NCBI RefSeq assembly: GCF_000159355.1
Contig: NZ_GG670120.1
Location: forward strand, 512,353-576,352
Direction of reading: 5' to 3'
DNA length: 64,000 nucleotides
From: Lactobacillus johnsonii ATCC 33200
GTDB taxonomy: Bacteria; Bacillota; Bacilli; Lactobacillales; Lactobacillaceae
Every line of letters begins with the position of its first letter. The first letter of the stretch is position 1. Positions 1,872 through 51,716 of the stretch are shown in pieces. The position numbers were made by a program, and so were the translations under genes. The notes beneath the pieces are model-generated. The model worked only from the letters and a program-made list of their open reading frames with translations. It searched no databases and had not been told where the DNA came from.

Positions 1872-3373
1872 ATGGAAGATCATAGTTTTATTTCATACGC
1901 AAATGGTAAATCTTTAGTAGAAATTAATAGTACTATTCCAGTTCCCAGAACTCGTAATTTCTTCAGGATGCTTTTAGCATATATTGGTCCTGGTACATTA
2001 GTTGCTGTTGGATACATGGATCCAGGAAACTGGGCAGCCTCAATTAATGGTGGTCAGAGTTTTAATTATCTTTTGATTTCTACTATTTTAATTTCTAGTT
2101 TAATGGCTATGCTTTTACAATATATGGCCGCAAAGCTCGGAATCGTTACATAAATGGATTTAGCACAAGCCATTCGTGCACGTACTAGTAAAAGATTAAT
2201 TTTTATCCTTTGGATTATAATTGAACTAGCAATTATGGCAACTGATGTAGCGGAAGTTATTGGAGCGGCAATTACTTTAAATCTTTTATTTAAGATCCTC
2301 CCCTAGTTATTGCAACTTTTATCACTGTTTTTGATGTATTACTTTTATTGTTATTGTCAAAAGTTGGATTTAGAAAAATAGAAGCCCTGGTATCCTGCTT
2401 GATTATGGTGATACTACTGGTTTTTACTTATCAAGTCATGTTAGCTAATCCTAACTGGAAAAATATTTTTTTGTCTGCATTGCCAACTCCAGAATTAGTA
2501 GCTCAGCATCCCGTAGTTAATTGGATTATCACCTTTAACAGGAAGTTTGGGAATAATTGGGGCTACTGTGATTCCCATAATTTTTATTTGCATTCATCTA
2601 TTTGCCAAACTAGAAAAATTAACCATGATGATCTGACAGATGTTCAAAATGCAGTCCGTTTTACTACGTGGGATTTAAATATTCAATTAATTATTGCCTT
2701 TTTTGTTAATGTACTTTTATTAATTATGGGAGCTGCTGTTTTTAAAAGTGGTGCAGTCAAAGATAGTTCATTCTTTGGTTTGTATGATGCTCTAAGCAAT
2801 ACGGCTATGTTAAGCAATCCAATTTTTATCTCAGTAGCTAAGACAGGAATTTTATCAGCCTTATTTGCAGTTGCACTTCTTGCTTCTGGTCAAAATTCAA
2901 CAATTACTGGAGCTCTCACTGGACAGGTAGTAATGGAGGGCTTTATTCACTTAAAGATGCCACTATGGGCAAGACGATTATTTACTAGATTATTATCTGT
3001 GATTCCAGTTATTATGTGTGTACTGATGACAGCAAAAGATTCAATTTCTCAGCAACATTTTGCCCTGAATATGCTTTTGGAAAATTCTCAAGTTTTTCTA
3101 GCATTTGCAGTACCATTTTCAATTGTGCCACTTTTGATTATGACAGATGATAGGAGAATGATGGGACAGTTTAAGAATAGAAAGATTTGGTCAATTCTAG
3201 GATGGGCCAGTTCAATTATTTTGATTTTCTTGAATTTGTGTAATTTACCAGCTACTTTTGTTTCCTTTAATATGATGCCAAAAAGAGATGCAGTAGTTTT
3301 CGCTTATGCGATCATTATGTTGATTATTTTATTAATGGGCTGGACATGTTGGGATATGCGAAAGAAGAAATAG
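1872..3373 (+). pseudogene. mntH: NRAMP-family Mn2+/divalent metal transporter, broken
   Basis: Conceptual translation shows an NRAMP transporter: [12 protein letters not shown] (the DPGN metal site in TM1), then [10 protein letters not shown], the LYLHSS block and further membrane helices to a normal C-terminus. Lesions: (1) TAA at 2151-2153 where the family has Gly before MDLAQ; (2) one C missing in the C-run near 2301-2304; (3) an extra T near 2533; (4) one C missing near 2570, which restores frame after a scrambled stretch that should read LTGSLGIIGATVIPHN. A compensating +1/-1 pair plus a nonsense codon argues for real decay. It follows sufT closely and may once have been cotranscribed. 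Confidence 0.88.
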
Positions 3374-4315: not shown

Positions 4316-5050
4316 TTATGCCGCATATGCGGATTTGTATAAATCTCTAGCGGCATTAATATCTTGCTCTTGAATAGAATAATAGGATCCTGCCGGATAT
4401 GTTACAGAAGCTGTATTAGTATGTTGTAAGCCAAGTACATGACCTAATTCATGTTCAGCTGTATTTACAACTCTTTGATAGCTATAATCATAATTTTCAT
4501 TTTGTAAGTAATAAGTATTTAGCTTAACTTATGCCTTTAATAAGTGATTAGTTAATGGATTATAGCTTGTGGTTGTAACACCGGCAGCACTTGTTGTATT
4601 ATCTTCAACTTGTTGTACTACAATGTTAGCCTCATTTTTATTGGTGTTTTCTTTAAAAGTAAACGCCCCAGTTTTATTCCAACTATTTATTGCTTCTCGA
4701 GTGGCAGTCACTAATTCATCGTTATTTGAAATGTCAATAAAGACATTTGCTTTAGCCTGGTTCCAAGTTTGTTTACCGGAAGTCTCTTGATTTTGTCCTT
4801 CACTAGAATTAGAAGTTACTGGCTGATTTGGCTGTTGGTTATCTGATTCCGAAGATGGCATCTGATCAGAAGGACGATCGGAAACTTTAGGTGGAACTAG
4901 CTTTAATGGATTAAGGTCACTAGCGTCTATGGTTGATATTTTTTCTTTAATGTACTAATTGAATCATTAGTAGCCATGCGAACAGTAGGATTATTTCTAT
5001 AAGTATTAACACCTACAGAAACAAGACCTAATAGAAGAAAGAGCTTAATT
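4316..5050 (-). pseudogene. matrixin-like zinc metalloprotease, broken and 5'-truncated
   Basis: On the minus strand the C-terminal part reads HELGHVLGLQHT (4421-4453), the HExxHxxGxxH zinc site of M10-type proteases, and ends at TAA 4316-4318 after LYKSAYAA. Upstream are a Ser/Asn/Gln-rich linker and a hydrophobic N-terminal anchor (KLFLLLGLVSVGV), suggesting a membrane-anchored extracellular protease. Lesions: an in-frame TAA at 4529-4531, one missing A in the A-run near 4937-4943, and loss of the start where the sequence runs directly into the bile salt hydrolase fragment at about 5050. Substrate unknown. Confidence 0.82.
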
Positions 5051-5669: not shown

Positions 5670-6745
5670 TTATCCCCAATTTAATTCATCATATTTTGCT
5701 TGGATAAATTCCCTAAATAAAGGTAGGGTGAATCCTAATTTACCGCGAATGATTGTTTTGATTAAATCATATTTAATTAGCTTAGTACGATACATATTTA
5801 CGTATAGCTTGCTTTTACCCATTTCTTCAATAATTGCACTAATATTATTATTTTTGACATCTCGTAGAGAAATTGAAAATCAATTTCTGTTAGTTCATGT
5901 GAGATGACATCATACGCTTGATTGAAAAGCGTATCTTTAAAAGCTAACTTAGTATAATTCCAGGATTCTTCAAAATTTTTACCAGTAGATAGCTCATACA
6001 TAAAATCCCCAATTAATTGAAAAGCATAAGCATAGCCTTGTGTCATCTCGGCGATTTCTTCAGCTTGGTCACTTGTAATGTCAAATACTTTAATATACGC
6101 TTGAACAATTGATAATTTTTGCAATTTATTAATGTGAAACCTATCAGCGCTTACTAAAAAAGTTAAATTATGCGAACTATAAAGTTCTGCCACTTACTTC
6201 AACAATCCAGTCATGATAACAGAAACTTGAAGTTCACTTAAGCTCCAATTATTAAATTCTTCAGCTAATTTTTGAATTGCTGGTGTATTAGAAACTTCAT
6301 CAATACAAAATACGACTCGCATGTTAGCTTGTTTCAATAATTTTAAAATTTTGGTGATTTCAGTTTTATAGTAGATTTCATCATGTTTTTCATTTGCTTC
6401 AGCAAAATTTATAGAAACGAATGGTAAGCTAATTGAAACAGATGAAGACCACTTTTTTAATTTGTTAAGCATTGGGGCTAGCTTAATGTACATTATACGG
6501 AATAAATCTTCAGTATTATAAAGAGTTACCACGATTGTATCATCATATTTATTAAGTTCTTTGCCAACTTTGTTCATAAAAACTGTTTTACCTGAACCAT
6601 GGACACCAGTAATAAAAAGTAAGTAAGTGGGATGCTTTTTGTGACGGTGTGCTCTTTTAGCATATTTGACAGCATCATTATTAAAATCAAGATATAGTTC
6701 TGGAATTCCGCCGAATTCGGCATCAAATGGATTTTCACTGTACAT
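5670..6745 (-). pseudogene. AAA+ ATPase with winged-helix C-terminus, broken (paralog 1)
   Basis: The start MYSENPFDAEFGGIPELYL parallels the intact gene at 6923-8023. Walker A is GVHGSGKT, Walker B is VVFCIDEV, and a QGYAYAFQLIG block follows. An in-frame TAA at 6194-6196 follows GLLK (the paralog has GLPENV), and a frameshift near 5860 moves the winged-helix-like tail (IIEEMGKSKLYVNMYRTKLI) into another frame, ending at TAA 5670-5672. Without the lesions the protein would be about 358 residues, matching its paralog. Function unknown; the architecture (P-loop ATPase plus C-terminal wHTH) resembles archaeal-type/STAND-like ATPases. Confidence 0.8.
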
Positions 6746-23688: not shown

Positions 23689-23829
23689 CGTAAACTTGAT
23701 AATTTCTTTAGAGAATATTTGAAATAAAATATTTCAATTTTTTTAAGAAAGTAAAGAAATTATAAAGACGGTTGAACAATAAAAAATAGTCGTTTATGCT
23801 ATAGTCGTTAATTAAATAAAGAAGCAAAT

Positions 23830-24034
23830 AAACTGTTAGGTGAGACTCCTACGTAAATATATGCTGATGCCCAGGAACATCCAGAGATGCCAACGGGTCA
23901 AACAGGAACTGTCGAGTTAAGGCTTTTCCCAGTCAGCTAGTTGAAAAAACTTTACGTTACGTAGTGTTAAAACTGAACGACGAGTATTAAATCGCTATTA
24001 TAAGACCAATGCAGTTTTTGCATTGGTCTTTTTG
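23830..24034 (+). ncRNA. M-box (ykoK leader) Mg2+ riboswitch with terminator
   Basis: The leader carries the M-box core in order: CTGTTAGGTGAGACTCCTAC, GATGCCCAGGAACATCCAGA, GATGCCAACGGGTCAAACAGG and GTCGAGTTAAGG, and ends with a terminator whose arms AAGACCAATGCA and TGCATTGGTCTT (24002-24030) precede a T run. Known M-boxes fold when Mg2+ is high and favour termination. The downstream gene is a Mg2+ P-type ATPase starting 35 bases after the T run, so the switch would turn on Mg2+ uptake under starvation. Confidence 0.92.
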
Positions 24035-44180: not shown

Positions 44181-47100
44181 ATGAACGAATTAAATAAAAT
44201 CGAAAATGCTATTAAAGAAATTGATGCGACAACCTTTCAAAAACTTTGTGACGAATATTTATCTCGTATTTTAGGAGGAACATTAAATCCTCTTGGTTCT
44301 GAAGATGGTAAAAACAAACCAACTAAAGGAACACCAGATTCGTATATTATAAATGATAGTGGTGATTTGTATTTGATGGAATATACATCACAAGAAAGTA
44401 GGTTAATTCAAAAAATTAATAGCGACTTAAAGAAACTTAGTGAATTGAAGATTAATAAAAACAATGTAAAAAAGATTATTTATTGTTCAGCTACATCAAA
44501 CGTAAGCATAGAATATATCGACTCGTTAACAGAAAAGTATAAGAAAGAAAACATAGAGTTTAAATTTATTTCAAACTTTGAATTAGCCAAATATATTCAA
44601 GATAAGTACCGTGATTTAGCCAATAAATATTTAGGATTTGCATTACCACCACGGCAACTAAAAAATATTAGTGAATTTGGGGAAGAATATAATAAGCAAT
44701 TTAGTGGATCAAAATTAAATTCATATTTTGCTTATAGAGAAAAAGAGCTTGCAGAAATAAACGAATATTTTAAGACACAAAATATTATAGTGCTCACAGG
44801 TAAACCGGGGGTAGGAAAAACGAGATTAGCCTTTGAGTTTGCTAAAAGAAATTTCTTGAATAATAGTTTTTTCGTACGAAATGTATATGATATTAACGCT
44901 CTAATATCCGAACTTCAGATTGAATTTTCAGTTGATGCTACTAAATTAATTGTTTTTGATGATGCAAATCAAATTGAAAATTTGGAGAAAATATTTAAAG
45001 CGTTTGTTCAACAATTAAATTCTGGAAAAGTAAAGATTTTAATTACAGTACGCGATTATGCAAAAGAAGAAATAGAAAATAAAGTTGATGAATACGCTTC
45101 AGTAAGTACTATTAATTTACTATCGCTCAATACTGAAGAAATTAGGGAATGCATTACAAAAGTATACAATATAAAAAATGAGTACATTTTAGATATAATT
45201 TGTCAAATATCTCATAGTAATCTTAGAATGGCGATGTTGACATCTGAAGTATATTTGGAAAAACATAGAATTATTGATATAGCAGATGCGTCTCAAGTTT
45301 ATAAAAAACTACTTAAAAATGTACTGGAAAATGTAATTGATAATAATCGACAACTTATTTGCTTAGGAATAATTGCTTTTTTTGGAAACTTAAATATTAA
45401 TAACGAACAAGAAAAAGTTTTATACAAACCAATATTAGATACAGCCAATATTTCATATACCGAATTTAAACGAAATATTGCTTTACTTGATAAACAAGAA
45501 TTAATTGATTTTATAAATCAAAAATACATATATTTTTCAGATCAAACGTTAAAAGCTTATGTTTTAAAAATTGTCTTTTTAGATGAAAAGTTAATTTCTT
45601 TAAAAGATCTAATAGAATATACTTTTGAAACCAAAGCTGAGCTAGCTATTAATTGTATCAACGATTTGATAAATACCTTTTACAATGAAGAAAATGAAAA
45701 TTATCTTACTCAAGTTGTAAAAGAGGTTTGGAAATATTTGGAAGATAAACATAGTGAAAAGTATTTAGACTTTGTTTCGGATTTTGTAGAATTTGATGTT
45801 AATAAAACTATTGAAACGGTGAAAGAAAAAATTGATCAAATTAAACAATATCCAAGAAAAAATAATATTAGTTTCAATGTTTCGGATAATAATAGATTAA
45901 ATGATATTATTTTAAAAATAATTAATCATCTTTCTTATACTGATAGTTATAAATATGCTTCTGAGTTATTCTGTCTATATTTAAATAAACAACCACAGCT
46001 ATTTTCTGAATTTCATGCAGCTATCATTCAAGACTGGGCTATAAATTATGACACATTTATTAATTATAAATTTAGAAGACAGATTAGTTTGATCAAGGAA
46101 TTGATGAATAGCGAAAAATTCGATAGTGAGGTAAATATTTATTTACTTTTATCTATCATGCCTAAATATTTAGAATTAGTAATTGAAGAAACTCATGGAG
46201 TTGTTAATGAACCAAATAAATTTATGACACGCAAATTTTTATCTTCTGCTACTGAAGATAATCTTGTTTTTAGAGAACAACTGTGGAAATTCTTATTGAA
46301 ACTTGATTTTAATTTTGATAGTAAAGTTAGAAAAATTGTAGCAAACTATGGATTAGAGTTATTTGGATTGAACAATATAGATGATACTACTAGAAAAGTT
46401 GTTCAATTTGATTTGAAATATATTAGTAAATTAATTCATAAACTATTTGATCCAAAAAGCCTTATAGATTGTGTTGCAGTGGGTCAAATTAAAAATAGAT
46501 TATTTAAGACAAATATCGAAATTTCTAATATAGATAATTTTCTAAATAATAGTGATTATCATCTTTACCAAGATATCGAAAGTATTAGACGTGAAAAGAA
46601 ACACCAAAGTAATAAGTTTCTAAAAAAATATGTTGATGATAATTTAAACTCTGATGTAGAAACTTTGAAAAAAATAGTAAACATTATTGATACCCTAGAA
46701 AAAAGATCTCAGACTTATGGATTGTTGATGGTTGTACAAATTATATTAGATAACTTAAAAGATAATACAGATGAATACCTGTCCGGTATAGAATTTTTAT
46801 TTTCAAGTAAAATTTCAATATCATCGATTTTTTATGCAATTATAAATTATCTACATACTGTAAGCTCTACATCAAAAATTATTCAGATGTTAGATAAAGT
46901 AAAGAATGAAAACAGAAAAGACTGGTTATATTACATTTATTTTGATAGCTTGCCCAAGAAAAATTTGAATTTTCAAACCTATGACTTATTAACAAAGTAC
47001 TTAAAAAATGAAACTGTGAAAAGTATAGGAGATTATAGCAATCGCAGTCTTGATTTTCTATATAAATTTAATACTGTTAATACACATGCATTTGAAGAAT

Positions 47101-47894
47101 GTTGTAAAATTATATCTTCAAAAGAAGAAGAATTTAAAAGGATATATTTTCACTTTTCCTACCTTGATGAGAAACAAAGTGAAAGTATCGTAGATTCATT
47201 TGATGATATTAAATTATTAATAGATATTTTTATCAATTATATTGATAATGATCAATACGATATGTCTAATTATTTACTTGAAAAAATATATAAAAAGGAT
47301 CAATCAATTTTAACTAGTTATGTGAATAAAATTTTAATCCCCAAATTAAAGAAGTTTCAATTTCATAATGAAGATCAATTACTTCTACTTTTAAAAAACA
47401 ATAATAGTATTGAGATCTTAAATAAGATATGGAATATAATATGTCAGAAAAACGACAATTTTTTATTGATTGATTGGAGCGAGGAATTAGTAAACTTAGT
47501 AGAAAAAGATGACTGTGTAGACAATTGGATAAAATCATTTATAAAAAAAGGTAATTATGATTCTAAAGAAATTCATATCTTGTTAGAAGGAATTAACATA
47601 AAAAATATTAAACTTTTTTATAAGTACCTTAAAGAATATATTCAAACTAAACCAGATATAAAAGAATTTGATAAAATTCAATTTTTTCCAATGAGCTATA
47701 GTATTCCAATGAACGAAAAAGGCATCAAGAAATTCCATGTTACTAATATAGAATCTCTTAAAGCTCTTTCTGAGTGGATAACATCTTTAGGATTAGACTA
47801 TTTTGAGTATAAAAATAAAGTTGACATCTGTGTTAAAGGTGAAAGGGATATGTTAAAAGAAGATCTCGGAAAGTTAAGAGCTAATATTTATTAA
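44181..47894 (+). CDS. large NTPase with nuclease-like N-terminus (STAND-like), BREX-embedded
   Basis: 1237 residues. Residues 1-150 look like a restriction-endonuclease fold: TFQKLCDEYLSRILGG, then GTPDSY with Asp53 and LYLMEYTSQ with Glu67, in D-x13-ExT spacing. Residues 203-290 form a P-loop NTPase with Walker A GKPGVGKT (207-214), Walker B LIVFDD (256-261) and ILITVRDYA. From about 380 to the end the chain is alpha-helical, with repeat-like character and few glycines. This effector-NTPase-helical sensor order resembles STAND/Avs-type antiphage proteins, but I cannot assign a named family. Intact over 3.7 kb and more AT-rich than brxC. Between pglX and pglZ, so probably a defence cargo gene. 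Confidence 0.7.
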   Translation: MNELNKIENAIKEIDATTFQKLCDEYLSRILGGTLNPLGSEDGKNKPTKGTPDSYIINDSGDLYLMEYTSQESRLIQKINSDLKKLSELKINKNNVKKIIYCSATSNVSIEYIDSLTEKYKKENIEFKFISNFELAKYIQDKYRDLANKYLGFALPPRQLKNISEFGEEYNKQFSGSKLNSYFAYREKELAEINEYFKTQNIIVLTGKPGVGKTRLAFEFAKRNFLNNSFFVRNVYDINALISELQIEFSVDATKLIVFDDANQIENLEKIFKAFVQQLNSGKVKILITVRDYAKEEIENKVDEYASVSTINLLSLNTEEIRECITKVYNIKNEYILDIICQISHSNLRMAMLTSEVYLEKHRIIDIADASQVYKKLLKNVLENVIDNNRQLICLGIIAFFGNLNINNEQEKVLYKPILDTANISYTEFKRNIALLDKQELIDFINQKYIYFSDQTLKAYVLKIVFLDEKLISLKDLIEYTFETKAELAINCINDLINTFYNEENENYLTQVVKEVWKYLEDKHSEKYLDFVSDFVEFDVNKTIETVKEKIDQIKQYPRKNNISFNVSDNNRLNDIILKIINHLSYTDSYKYASELFCLYLNKQPQLFSEFHAAIIQDWAINYDTFINYKFRRQISLIKELMNSEKFDSEVNIYLLLSIMPKYLELVIEETHGVVNEPNKFMTRKFLSSATEDNLVFREQLWKFLLKLDFNFDSKVRKIVANYGLELFGLNNIDDTTRKVVQFDLKYISKLIHKLFDPKSLIDCVAVGQIKNRLFKTNIEISNIDNFLNNSDYHLYQDIESIRREKKHQSNKFLKKYVDDNLNSDVETLKKIVNIIDTLEKRSQTYGLLMVVQIILDNLKDNTDEYLSGIEFLFSSKISISSIFYAIINYLHTVSSTSKIIQMLDKVKNENRKDWLYYIYFDSLPKKNLNFQTYDLLTKYLKNETVKSIGDYSNRSLDFLYKFNTVNTHAFEECCKIISSKEEEFKRIYFHFSYLDEKQSESIVDSFDDIKLLIDIFINYIDNDQYDMSNYLLEKIYKKDQSILTSYVNKILIPKLKKFQFHNEDQLLLLLKNNNSIEILNKIWNIICQKNDNFLLIDWSEELVNLVEKDDCVDNWIKSFIKKGNYDSKEIHILLEGINIKNIKLFYKYLKEYIQTKPDIKEFDKIQFFPMSYSIPMNEKGIKKFHVTNIESLKALSEWITSLGLDYFEYKNKVDICVKGERDMLKEDLGKLRANIY

Positions 47895-48024: not shown

Positions 48025-48951
48025 ATGAATAATACCCTTTCTCAAAATACGGTTGATAAGAGTATAGAGTCCTTTTTAATGGGATTAGAAATTTACAATA
48101 AACCAACTATTAAGTATAGGTAGAAGGTTTTAGTTTTTTATTTGTAACGCAGGGGAATTGCTATTAAAGGCAATACTTATTGATAAAAATGAATCCATTT
48201 ATTATAAAGACGAACAAGATAGAACTATTAGTTTAATTGATGCAGTAAAAAAGATCTATCCTGATAAACATACAAGAATTAGATTGAATCTTGAAAAAAT
48301 AATATAGTTAAGAAATATTAGTACCCATTTTATTACTGAAGAATATGAAGTTAAATACGCACCATTGTTTCAAGCGTGTGTATTAAATTATACTAATGAA
48401 TTAGAAAAATACCAAAACAGAGATATTACTAAATATATCTCAAGACTTTCTAACTTTATCAATTCGTTATGAGCCATTAAGCGATGAACAGATAAAAATG
48501 ATGTATCCTGCTGAAATTGCTCAAAAATTTATACAACAATCTAATGAAATTGATGTGTTAAATAAAGAATATGATTCAGATAAATTTTCGATCAATATTG
48601 CTCAACGTTTATATATTACAAGAAAGAAATTCAGAAAATTTCGTAGCTATAGTTAAAGACATAAAAGATCCATCTGATACACACTAATATTCTTACAATA
48701 ATGTTATTATGGCAATCAATGAACGATTAAATAAACAAAACATAAAATTACAGTATAAAAGTGGTTTTAATCAGTATGTTTTAAATATGATAATAGATTT
48801 TTATGACATTAAATCAAATCCTAAGTATTCTTGTGAACATGTAATAGGAAAACAACACAGTTATACTTATTCTAAACAATTTGTAGAATTTGTTGTTACC
48901 GAGATAAAGAAAGACCCTCAACACTTTGTTGAGAGTCTTAAAAAAGTATAA
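48025..48951 (+). pseudogene. DUF3644 (HEPN-like) protein, multiply broken
   Basis: ATG 48025 opens MNNTLSQNTVDKSIESFLMG and, across frames, YNKPTIKYR, VEGFSFFICNAGELLLKAILIDKN and SLIDAVKKIYPD, the DUF3644 pattern. An LRNISTHF segment (RNxSTH at 48311-48328) fits the R-x4-H active site of HEPN RNases. The tail ERLNKQNIKLQYKSGFNQYVL... FVESLKKV is complete to TAA 48951. Lesions: indels near 48119 and 48140, TAG 48305-48307, an indel near 48440 and more stops near 48650-48690. DUF3644 proteins occur in defence islands; intact forms may be abortive-infection RNases. Confidence 0.78.
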
Positions 48952-48954
48952 AAA

Positions 48955-49022
48955 CAACGGGCACATAAGAATGCTCAGTGTAACAACTTACCCCGTTTTG
49001 GGACCCAGCGTTAATCATTAAC
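48955..49022 (+). ncRNA. candidate structured RNA downstream of the DUF3644 relic
   Basis: This is an unusually GC-rich patch in very AT-rich DNA. AACGGG (48956-48961) can pair with CCCGTT (48992-48997), enclosing a CAC/GTG pair; CCC (48992-48994) can instead pair with GGG (49000-49002); and GTTAATCATTAAC (49010-49022) is a self-complementary hairpin. No frame is open across it. It could be a small RNA partner of the HEPN gene, a leader of pglZ, or a leftover of a lost element. I do not recognise an Rfam class with certainty. Confidence 0.4.
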
Positions 49023-49049
49023 AAGTTATCTTTCACTTTAAATTGTAAA

Positions 49050-49073
49050 TCAATTATACAATTGTATAATTGA
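49050..49073. promoter_or_regulatory. 24-bp perfect palindrome upstream of pglZ
   Basis: Both arms read TCAATTATACAA, giving a perfect dyad of 24 bases centred at 49061/49062, 150 bases before pglZ. Its length exceeds typical operators and it lacks a loop or a T tail, so it is more likely a protein-binding site than a terminator. A TATAAT box at 49192-49197 probably starts pglZ transcription downstream of it. Confidence 0.6.
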
Positions 49074-49223
49074 ATATGCAAAATATTTATACTTATCAGA
49101 TTTTTTAGTATTTCTATATTTTTATTATAGATAATTAAATAGAGTAGAATTTTTATATACTTAGGGTGCCTTTAGGATACTTTGCGACTGATATAATTTA
49201 TTTAATGAACAGGAGTTAACAGT

Positions 49224-51716
49224 ATGGCAACATTAACGACAGATAAAATTATTTCAGAACTTAAAAACTATTTTGAAGATAAATATCAGTATGTTTTTTG
49301 GTATGACGATAAGGCTCAGTTTAAAGATATCATTGATCAAATTGCTTCTAATTTAAATGAAGTTAAACTATATAAAGCTCAAGCTAATCAACAATTTAAA
49401 ACAAAAATTAACCTTTTAAGTGATTCTCAACATAAATATTTAATTTATGCACCTTATGAACGACCGAGAATACAAGAAAATTATTTAACTGATCTGGAAT
49501 ACTATTCGAAGCTTTTTACTGCCGATGCAACACAAATTATACTAGAAGAATTAAATTTGTCAGTAGATAAATTATCTTTTGTAAAACAATATCATACATT
49601 TTTTGGTGCTAAAGATAGACGCAAGAACTTTATTAAGTATTGGAACGTAGATTTCGATACCACTCCTGAAAAAGGTATTATCGCGGCAATTACCAAAACT
49701 GAAAAGCTAGATATTAATGAATTATTGATGAAAATTATTTCTGCCGGAAAAGAAAACAATCAATATTTATTTCTTTTTGCTAAATATAATGTACTAGATT
49801 ATTTTTGGAAACTAGTTGGGAATTATTTCGGCTATGATACTATTGAAAATGCTAACTTAGATAATCTAATTAATAATCTTTTTTTCACATATTTAGATAC
49901 AGAATTAGATATTAAAAATTCTAATAAATTTCAAAATTTATTATTAAGTAATAAAGATAATGTACAAATTTTTATTGATCGCTTTGCTGATTCTAATAAA
50001 TATAATAAATACTATATCTCAGAGTCAAATCGTGTTTGGAATGAATTGAAATTACATGATTTATTAGTACAAGAATCCCTCAGTGACTTAACAAAGGTAA
50101 CTGTTTTTGAAGAAGTAAACAGTATCGTATTAACAAAAATTAGAGATAAATTTATTGATAATCAAGTTACTGATTATGAACAAGTTCTAAATATTATTGA
50201 TCGAATGTCTAACCACACTCGCAATAATTTCTCTAATAATAAAGAAAATGAATATAAATTTTTACGTTATAGTGCTGAATTATTTAATTTGCGTATCCCA
50301 TTATTTGAAAATTGGCAAAAAGAATTGGACGGATATATAAATAATGAATACCAAATAGACACTATTTATCGAAAATTATTATTAGCTTATACAAGAATTG
50401 GCAATAACGATTTATATAGTAAAATCAAAAAAAATATTGATTTGTATTACGGAAATATTTTATTAAATAGCTCGGTTAAACAATGGAATAATACCTTTGA
50501 TTTATCAGAAGTACCAAGTGATATAAAACAAGAAAGATTTTATCATAATCACGTAGCTCATGTGCCAGAAAGAGTTGTAGTAATTTTTTCAGATGCCTTA
50601 CGCTTTGAAGTTGGTAAAGAGCTAGAAGATGAGCTAGATAATAATGATCGATTAACTTTAAATATGAAATATGCGCTTACTAGCTTGCCGTCAGTAACGT
50701 ATATGGGAATGAATGTTATGCTACCACACAATAGTCTTAGATGGGATGCAGAGAAACATAAAGTTAAAGTAGATGATAAAAACGCTGAAAATACTTCTGC
50801 TCGTAATAAAATTTTAAAAACATTCAATGAAAGTAACACAGCTGCTCAACTAAAAGATATCTTGGAAATGACTTCAAAAGAAGTGAAAACTTTCATTAAT
50901 GGTAAGAATTTAATTTATTTGTATCACAATCAAATTGATGCTAAAGGACATGAACTAAAAACAACTAAAGAACTAGTAGATGCTACAGAAAAAGCAATTG
51001 AGGAAATTAAAAAAACTATTCAAGCTCTACGAACAAACGGTGTGTCGCACATCATTGTAACAGCCGATCATGGCTTTATTTATCAAGAACGTCCAATTTA
51101 TGATACCGACAAAATTGATTTAGCAAATGAAGACTATTTAGGCAATGCGCATTTAAGATATTTGATTACCCCTGATAAATTAAGCGTAAGGGGAGTTAAA
51201 AGTACTACAATGGGTATTAGCTTATCTAATGATGATAAAACTAATATTTATTATCCAACAAGCCCGAACGAATTTATTGCAAGAAGTGGAAGTAAAAATT
51301 ATGTTCACGGCGGTTCTTCTATTCAAGAAATGTTAATTCCAATATTAGATATCAAAGCAACTTCACGAAAATCCGCTGCACAACCAGCAGAAATCAAATT
51401 AGCGGCTACTACTTTTAGAATTAATAGTTTAAAAATGAATTTGCTTTTTAATCAAATAGCTTCAGTTAGTGATAGAGTATTACCAACTGAATATAATGTA
51501 TTCTTTGTTGATGAGGATGAAAAGATGATTTCTAATAAAGTAGTAGTTGAAGCAAATCGTAAGGGATCTGCGGCTGATCGTACTCTTCCTGTAACTATTA
51601 CAATTCAGAATACAAATTATAATCTTAATAAAAAATATTATTTAGTAATTGAGAACCAAGATACTAATTATTCCCAAAAAATAGAATATACCATGGATAT
51701 ATTTTCAAATAATTAA
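49224..51716 (+). CDS. pglZ: BREX protein PglZ (alkaline-phosphatase-like)
   Basis: 830 residues, typical of type 1 PglZ. The metal-binding core shows VVVIFSDALRFEVGKEL with Asp457 and SHIIVTADHGFIYQE with Asp615 and His616, plus YLYHNQIDAKGH and the C-terminal FIARSGSKNYVHGGSSIQEMLIPIL. PglZ is the phosphatase-fold protein that defines BREX; its exact target is unknown. It has GGAGTTA before ATG 49224. It is separated from pglX by 5.3 kb of inserted material, and brxL, which normally follows, is missing. Confidence 0.93.
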   Translation: MATLTTDKIISELKNYFEDKYQYVFWYDDKAQFKDIIDQIASNLNEVKLYKAQANQQFKTKINLLSDSQHKYLIYAPYERPRIQENYLTDLEYYSKLFTADATQIILEELNLSVDKLSFVKQYHTFFGAKDRRKNFIKYWNVDFDTTPEKGIIAAITKTEKLDINELLMKIISAGKENNQYLFLFAKYNVLDYFWKLVGNYFGYDTIENANLDNLINNLFFTYLDTELDIKNSNKFQNLLLSNKDNVQIFIDRFADSNKYNKYYISESNRVWNELKLHDLLVQESLSDLTKVTVFEEVNSIVLTKIRDKFIDNQVTDYEQVLNIIDRMSNHTRNNFSNNKENEYKFLRYSAELFNLRIPLFENWQKELDGYINNEYQIDTIYRKLLLAYTRIGNNDLYSKIKKNIDLYYGNILLNSSVKQWNNTFDLSEVPSDIKQERFYHNHVAHVPERVVVIFSDALRFEVGKELEDELDNNDRLTLNMKYALTSLPSVTYMGMNVMLPHNSLRWDAEKHKVKVDDKNAENTSARNKILKTFNESNTAAQLKDILEMTSKEVKTFINGKNLIYLYHNQIDAKGHELKTTKELVDATEKAIEEIKKTIQALRTNGVSHIIVTADHGFIYQERPIYDTDKIDLANEDYLGNAHLRYLITPDKLSVRGVKSTTMGISLSNDDKTNIYYPTSPNEFIARSGSKNYVHGGSSIQEMLIPILDIKATSRKSAAQPAEIKLAATTFRINSLKMNLLFNQIASVSDRVLPTEYNVFFVDEDEKMISNKVVVEANRKGSAADRTLPVTITIQNTNYNLNKKYYLVIENQDTNYSQKIEYTMDIFSNN

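Follow-up and report, generated by a model that had tools for sequence, protein, structure and literature searches.

An uncatalogued structured RNA family beside DUF3644 HEPN genes and its degenerate copy in a Lactobacillus johnsonii BREX locus

Introduction

Within the 64,000-nucleotide stretch of Lactobacillus johnsonii ATCC 33200 DNA analysed here (the window), a short patch has a GC content of 0.44 across 48952-49019, against about 0.13-0.34 in the neighbouring sequence. What is this patch, placed between the relic of a HEPN-type gene and pglZ? The initial annotation had taken it for a structured RNA tied to the HEPN/Abi-type gene or, alternatively, for a leader controlling pglZ. The composition and place of the patch were borne out by the analysis; its extent was enlarged and the RNA assigned to the minus strand (Table 1). 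The element is a relic of an uncatalogued RNA family, and the tie of this family to a HEPN defence candidate is well supported.

Table 1. Position and evidence for the RNA, its partner gene and neighbouring features in the window.
Feature	Position	Strand	Evidence
Degenerate DUF3644-associated RNA	48945..49033	minus	R1 covariance model 60.9 bits; nhmmer 34.1 bits
Window-specific 8-bp deletion site, just inside the low end of the positions given	48958..48977	minus	Three-way alignment with siblings G148 and G192
Relic of DUF3644 (HEPN) + EC042_2821 gene	48025..48951	plus	PF18740 9.7e-25 for C-terminal 80-aa piece
Promoter-like site for minus-strand RNA, weak	49055..49084	minus	Consensus match only
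pglZ of surrounding BREX locus (context only)	49224..51716	plus	PADLOC PglZ 1094.7 bits; PF08665
nSTAND3-type NTPase, 1237 aa, upstream of relic in BREX locus (context)	44181..47894	plus	PF20720 1.5e-8

Results

The element accompanies a subclade of DUF3644 genes

Folded by itself, the window sequence was on par with shuffled sequence (stability z of +0.39 on the plus and -0.64 on the minus strand). Thermodynamic folding of the lone sequence was set aside as not distinctive, and the evidence for an RNA is comparative. Distant blastn searches showed the patch to be conserved in mobile elements of Streptococcus, Staphylococcus and Fructilactobacillus, with matches in intergenic DNA of a Fructilactobacillus plasmid and of Staphylococcus plasmids and in dozens of phages and phage satellites of Streptococcus and Staphylococcus. 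In E. coli genomes no blastn-level match to the element was obtained. The element is located directly 3' of a gene for a ~320-aa DUF3644 + EC042_2821 protein, the putative toxin, in most of the records fetched. Loci were then gathered by the protein alone, 80 of them from GTDB genomes and 80 from IMG/VR, and the element was present around the gene end in every locus displayed from this collection. An nhmmer profile detected it in 171 sources out of 177, the exceptions being loci at contig ends, loci with a truncated gene and one phage copy that is only partial. When intact toxin ORFs with 100 nt or more of sequence on their 3' side were counted, the RNA was beside all of them (143/143, representing 121 distinct proteins), in collections that are redundant at the phage level. 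Two pattern scans of viral contigs placed all copies adjoining the protein gene on the strand opposite to it.

Among 301 Lactobacillaceae genomes the protein was present in 19 and the RNA in 31, and all 19 fell within the 31. The RNA occurs without the protein in the other 12 genomes, and some RNA-only copies have just a C-terminal scrap of the gene beside them (L210, L215). Solitary copies have diverse neighbours: one (L213, 2997-3087, minus strand) lies directly upstream of an Abi_2 (AbiF-type) gene, the only solitary RNA beside which an Abi_2 gene was found, and another (L212, 2915-3005, plus strand) faces an AbiH gene. The Staphylococcus StB20-like phage of locus L007 carries two RNA alleles (2986-3076 and 4819-4906), as does L002; in such phages one RNA is with the toxin gene and the other is left behind after a CapA-like gene. 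In Listeria phage LP-HM00113468 (locus L011), the Listeria sRNA rli48 (RF01479; 3539-3688, plus strand) is found some 500 nt from the toxin-RNA pair.

The hosts belong to Bacillota and Actinomycetota, the latter including Bifidobacterium (L042) and Corynebacterium phage Poushou. Both close DUF3644 relatives in the phylum sample (L306, L307) have the RNA, and distant DUF3644 proteins gave no significant match. The RNA thus seems limited to one subclade, and no such partner is claimed for DUF3644 proteins at large. The RNA-linked subclade is the best fit to the PADLOC models PDLC04952/04949 (candidate defence family PDC-S19). As for the proposed pglZ leader, the RNA is on the strand opposite to pglZ, and its homologues follow DUF3644 genes in unrelated phages that have no pglZ; this part of the initial annotation was abandoned.

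Strand, signals and structure of the RNA

The family RNA has a length of ~85 nt and is convergent with the DUF3644 + EC042_2821 gene, at its stop codon. Promoter and terminator calls were made as consensus matches. A sigma-70 promoter search (at least 10 of 12 positions, spacing of 16-18 bp, strand relative to the toxin gene) gave minus-strand matches in 98 of 123 distinct upstream regions, compared with 66 of 2460 shuffles, and by the same criterion 0/124 on the plus strand. A T-run of at least six follows the RNA in 104/124 cases, and typically overlaps or adjoins the toxin stop codon. The RNAalifold consensus was -15.3 kcal/mol for the minus and -0.3 kcal/mol for the plus strand; a plus-strand RNA, having neither promoter signal nor appreciable consensus fold, was rejected. 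Taken together, promoter, T-run and consensus fold make the element look like a separate small RNA transcribed toward the toxin gene, which would start at its own sigma-70-type promoter and end in the terminator-like T-run at the toxin stop codon.

The structure consists of a closing stem P1 of 10 bp and a core, in which P2 (7 bp) carries two hairpins, P3 (CCC/GGG) and the variable P4. Covariation was assessed in alignment A2, which holds 87 non-redundant sequences and a structure of 25 pairs. In this alignment 91.3% of cells are paired, against 82.9% in shuffles; double-change cells number 207 against 75, and compensatory change is seen in 15 pairs. Since the structure was designed on the same sequences, these counts favour it, and the slid-column controls, in which pairing falls to about 53% when the partner is slid by one column, cover only part of this bias. 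The covariation of the family is strong. An alternative helix, GAAGGA/UCCUU, lacked covariation (83.9% paired, 83.8% in shuffles) and was dropped.

The initial annotation had staked a conserved RNA tied to an HEPN/Abi-type gene on conservation and covariation in homologous DUF3644 loci. Both were found, and the 143/143 association makes the tie. The Rfam scan that it had also named brought no family: at the gathering score of Rfam 15 the RNA had no match, either in the window or at the loci that were scanned, and in the patch at E up to 10 there were chance matches only.

The copy in the window has decayed together with its partner gene

The source genome contains a single RNA match and four DUF3644 fragments with stops. 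At 60.9 bits (from a home-made covariance model, whose E-values are rough), the match is degenerate compared with full-length copies elsewhere in Lactobacillaceae, which score about 80-105 bits. Its 5' end is near 49031-49033 and its 3' end near 48945; the core P2-P3-P4 is mostly retained and P1 is broken. The partner gene is broken as well, by frameshifts, internal stops and a 35-bp deletion, with the HEPN motif RNISTH still legible. The promoter-like site (TTTGCA, 18 bp, TATAAT; 10 of 12 positions match) is farther upstream than at intact loci, in sequence near-identical to that of the siblings.

These siblings, G148 and G192, are other species of the genus, and in both the BREX locus has this gene and this RNA at the corresponding place. 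Their RNAs score 86 and 80 bits, and the DUF3644 gene is frameshifted in both. The toxin gene is thus broken and the RNA well preserved in the siblings, and P1 is also lost in the window only. There, an 8-bp deletion took out most of the 3' strand of P1, where both siblings retain GATAACCC (plus strand). Of the three pairings named by the initial annotation, CCC/GGG is ancestral and corresponds to the conserved P3. The other two are products of decay: AACGGG/CCCGTT arose through the window-specific deletion and the GTTAATCATTAAC hairpin through substitutions, sibling G148 having GTTAATCCTTCAC at that place.

The main visible lesion of the G148 gene (locus L208) is a one-base slip in a T-run near codon 40. 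Being out of frame mainly by one T with its RNA kept, this locus is possibly a reversible, phase-variable toxin switch. In the BREX locus around the window RNA, brxC, pglX and pglZ were confirmed with PADLOC models; the nSTAND3-type NTPase had no PADLOC match and is possibly an accessory defence gene. An M-box (magnesium) riboswitch (RF00380, 144 bits) was found at 23825-23992 on the plus strand of the window.

The partner is a predicted HEPN RNase

The partner proteins match PF12358 (DUF3644, about 1e-55) and EC042_2821 and do not match Abi_2 (PF07751). Intact relatives of the window relic match PDLC04952 at 1e-140 or better. The HEPN R-x4-H motif (R96, H101) is invariant in 48/48 relatives. 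An AlphaFold model of the protein (mean pLDDT 83.6) aligns to HEPN structures, including MntA-HepT toxins and Csm6, with Z of about 9-10 over ~115 residues. Helical folds easily reach middling Z, so the motif and the Pfam match weigh more than the fold score. A PDB sequence search with the protein gave a chance-level match only. On motif, domain match and model, the partner is predicted to be an R-x4-H RNase of the HEPN type whose C-terminal domain is REase-like. An active DNase in the C-terminal domain was considered and rejected, the candidate catalytic D206 being kept in 29/48 relatives only.

Phages carry the RNA core apart from the toxin gene

In the first viral scan, all matches under 64 bits lacked a detected toxin gene. 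These toxin-less copies retain P2-P3-P4, and the sequence outside the core differs. In ten of them P1 is replaced but still paired, with double changes in all ten pairs and 86% of cells paired in an alignment fitted to the model. In Streptococcus phage SMP, and in many relatives, the core comes directly after a tRNA-Ser or a tRNA-like 3' end, with a new stem TGAGTG/CACTCA. The core lies between tRNA-Lys and tRNA-Arg in Corynebacterium phage Darwin and about 500 nt from a tRNA cluster in Eggerthella phage LE2-3, and is found within or beside tRNA arrays also in Lactobacillaceae prophages and gut phages. With default ARAGORN settings, a same-strand tRNA was located within 150 nt of 9/22 toxin-less cores and 0/34 toxin-linked ones (Fisher p about 7e-5, an optimistic value because several of the 22 cores are close relatives); relaxed settings gave 11/22 and 4/34.

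Other copies are circularly permuted: the GAGNATTC part stands before the TGKGTCCC..GGGGTAGG part, with P4 as the outer stem. Six such cores were inspected (L321, L345, L328, L340, L364, L390) and three identified by pattern (L378, L383, L431). They lie mostly in phage late regions, for example near endolysin or terminase genes. The L328/L340/L364/L390 group has in common a conserved ~60-nt 5' stretch and a TATAAT, and may be a longer phage RNA in its own right. Known RNAs were also met near some cores: in a Streptococcus phage, GOLLD RNA (RF02032; L319, 4825-5219) is about 500 nt from a tRNA-linked core near 5726-5776, and DUF3800-VII RNA (RF02967; L273, 1719-1808, minus strand) lies, at a distance of about 550 nt, on the strand of a toxin-less core.

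Because many RNA copies are near integrases, they might have been att sites or integration elements. This reading was dismissed: the copies located in tRNA arrays, in late regions and in BREX loci have no integrase nearby, and P1 conserves structure and not sequence. The rearranged copies form a striking set. One core attained by different routes suggests selection to resemble the antitoxin, and the toxin-less phage and prophage cores look like phage-borne mimics of it; they may equally be decoys of an RNA cofactor.

Discussion

These results are best explained by a two-part abortive-infection or toxin-antitoxin module, a reading that we consider likely, in which an RNA antitoxin would bind a HEPN RNase and hold it inactive, and phage cores would keep the toxin silent. 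The RNA would be transcribed from its own promoter toward the 3' end of the toxin gene, stop at the T-run, and fold with the closing stem P1 around the core formed by P2 and hairpins P3 and P4. The core most likely binds the HEPN protein directly, by which the protein would be kept inactive. On phage infection the balance would be disturbed and the RNase released to act on its presumed target; a look-alike core on the phage would leave the toxin silent, which may be its purpose.

Every intact gene of this candidate anti-phage HEPN family that was examined has the RNA beside it, probably as its antitoxin. The toxin is never without the RNA, the RNA is often without the toxin, and the toxin decays first, which, judged from the loci collected, is the pattern expected of an antitoxin. 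An RNA that neutralises in trans could outlive its toxin, which would account for the solitary RNAs and the observed order of decay. The antitoxin reading is supported by the 143/143 association, the opposite strand, the promoter and T-run and the covariation; by the invariant motif and HEPN fold of the partner; and by the nesting of the 19 Lactobacillaceae genomes within the 31, the decay order in the siblings, the replaced yet paired P1 and the precedent of AbiF/RCd22. Against it, a short RNA is less often mutated than a 1-kb gene, so that RNA-only remnants would be commoner anyway; the downstream, convergent position of the RNA differs from that of type III antitoxins and of RCd22; and in PADLOC the protein is listed only as a one-gene defence candidate.

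The same universal association and the phage-borne cores would fit equally well if the RNA were required as a cofactor or guide by a HEPN protein that is inert alone and senses or attacks phage with it, the phage copies acting as competitive decoys in the manner of RNA anti-CRISPRs, for which Racrs offer a precedent (PMC10651486). An RNA-dependent protein should, however, sometimes occur alone as a harmless leftover, and it was without the RNA in 0/143 intact genes and 0/19 genomes, while RNA-only copies are common; we regard this alternative as unlikely. Considerably less probable still is a reading in which the core first of all serves the phage, for example in late gene or tRNA-array biology, and the HEPN protein evolved to sense or imitate this phage RNA. 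Cores do occur in tRNA arrays or late regions of diverse phages, one of them beside GOLLD RNA, but it is the toxin-linked form that is complete, with consistent promoter, terminator and P1, and the phage forms vary in P1, location and permutation as if a copied core had been repeatedly reshaped. Least probable is a purely cis-acting role as an antisense or convergent-transcription element controlling the 3' end of the toxin mRNA: at most loci the convergent RNA abuts or overlaps the stop codon with its 3' end, but the overlap is a few bases, structure and not complementarity to the mRNA is conserved, and a toxin mRNA of this kind is missing for the solitary and the tRNA-linked phage copies.

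With the antitoxin reading, the phages may carry a widespread class of RNA counter-defence against the HEPN module, a proposal on which our judgement is evenly divided. The core would have been copied, its stem replaced, and the product linked to tRNAs or permuted; the RNase would be silenced by it, and the neighbouring tRNAs may replace those that are cut.

An RNA gene is added here to a defence candidate so far listed as a single gene, which would make a further type of RNA-paired HEPN toxin besides AbiF. AbiF proteins are linked to ancestral Cas13. As the RNA is compact, supported by covariation and absent from Rfam, its immediate annotation is possible in Bacillota, in some Actinomycetota and in the phages of both. 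With their swapped stems and permutations, the toxin-less phage copies amount to a natural mutagenesis that shows the essential part of the RNA, and suggest RNA-based counter-defence.

Comparison with known systems

The partner protein is a member of PADLOC PDC-S19 (DUF3644 + EC042_2821; E about 1e-140), which PADLOC models as a single gene and to which an RNA partner is now added. PDC-S19 is absent from the open-licence literature, where DUF3644 occurs in a single paper; an earlier description may exist in a closed-access journal or a preprint. The survey of Anantharaman et al. (2013) describes HEPN families that are joined to a new domain of the REase fold, and in the portion of it consulted no mention of an RNA partner was found (PMC3710099).

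The principle proposed here, neutralisation of an RNase toxin by RNA, would be that of type III toxin-antitoxin systems such as ToxIN, for which phage RNA mimics also exist, pseudo-ToxI being a phage mimic of the antitoxin (PMC3475682). The toxin here has the HEPN fold and not the ToxN fold, and ToxI is a repeat array upstream of the toxin whereas the present RNA consists of one ~85-nt unit that has a promoter to itself. The type III layout of co-transcribed upstream repeats and a ToxN-fold toxin was not found; the single unit is downstream, on the opposite strand, beside a HEPN gene.

Racrs are phage RNA mimics of CRISPR repeats (PMC10651486), and like them the solitary phage-borne copies reproduce a defence system's own structured RNA. 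The present putative mimics, unlike Racrs, resemble the RNA of a HEPN module and are often tRNA-linked or circularly permuted.

AbiF is a HEPN-type Abi protein of C. difficile prophages, and RCd22 binds it and neutralises it in cis and in trans (PMC12373285). Both pairs combine a prophage-borne HEPN Abi protein with a structured RNA of ~100 nt (abiF RNA, RF03085, in the case of RCd22), and RCd22 likewise has its own promoter and terminator (PMC12373285). At the gathering score, RF03085 had no match in the window or the loci scanned. The HEPN family is Abi_2 there and DUF3644 + EC042_2821 here, and RCd22 is upstream and read through into the toxin gene whereas the present RNA is downstream and convergent. 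AbiF/RCd22 is the closest precedent for the RNA-HEPN pair described here.
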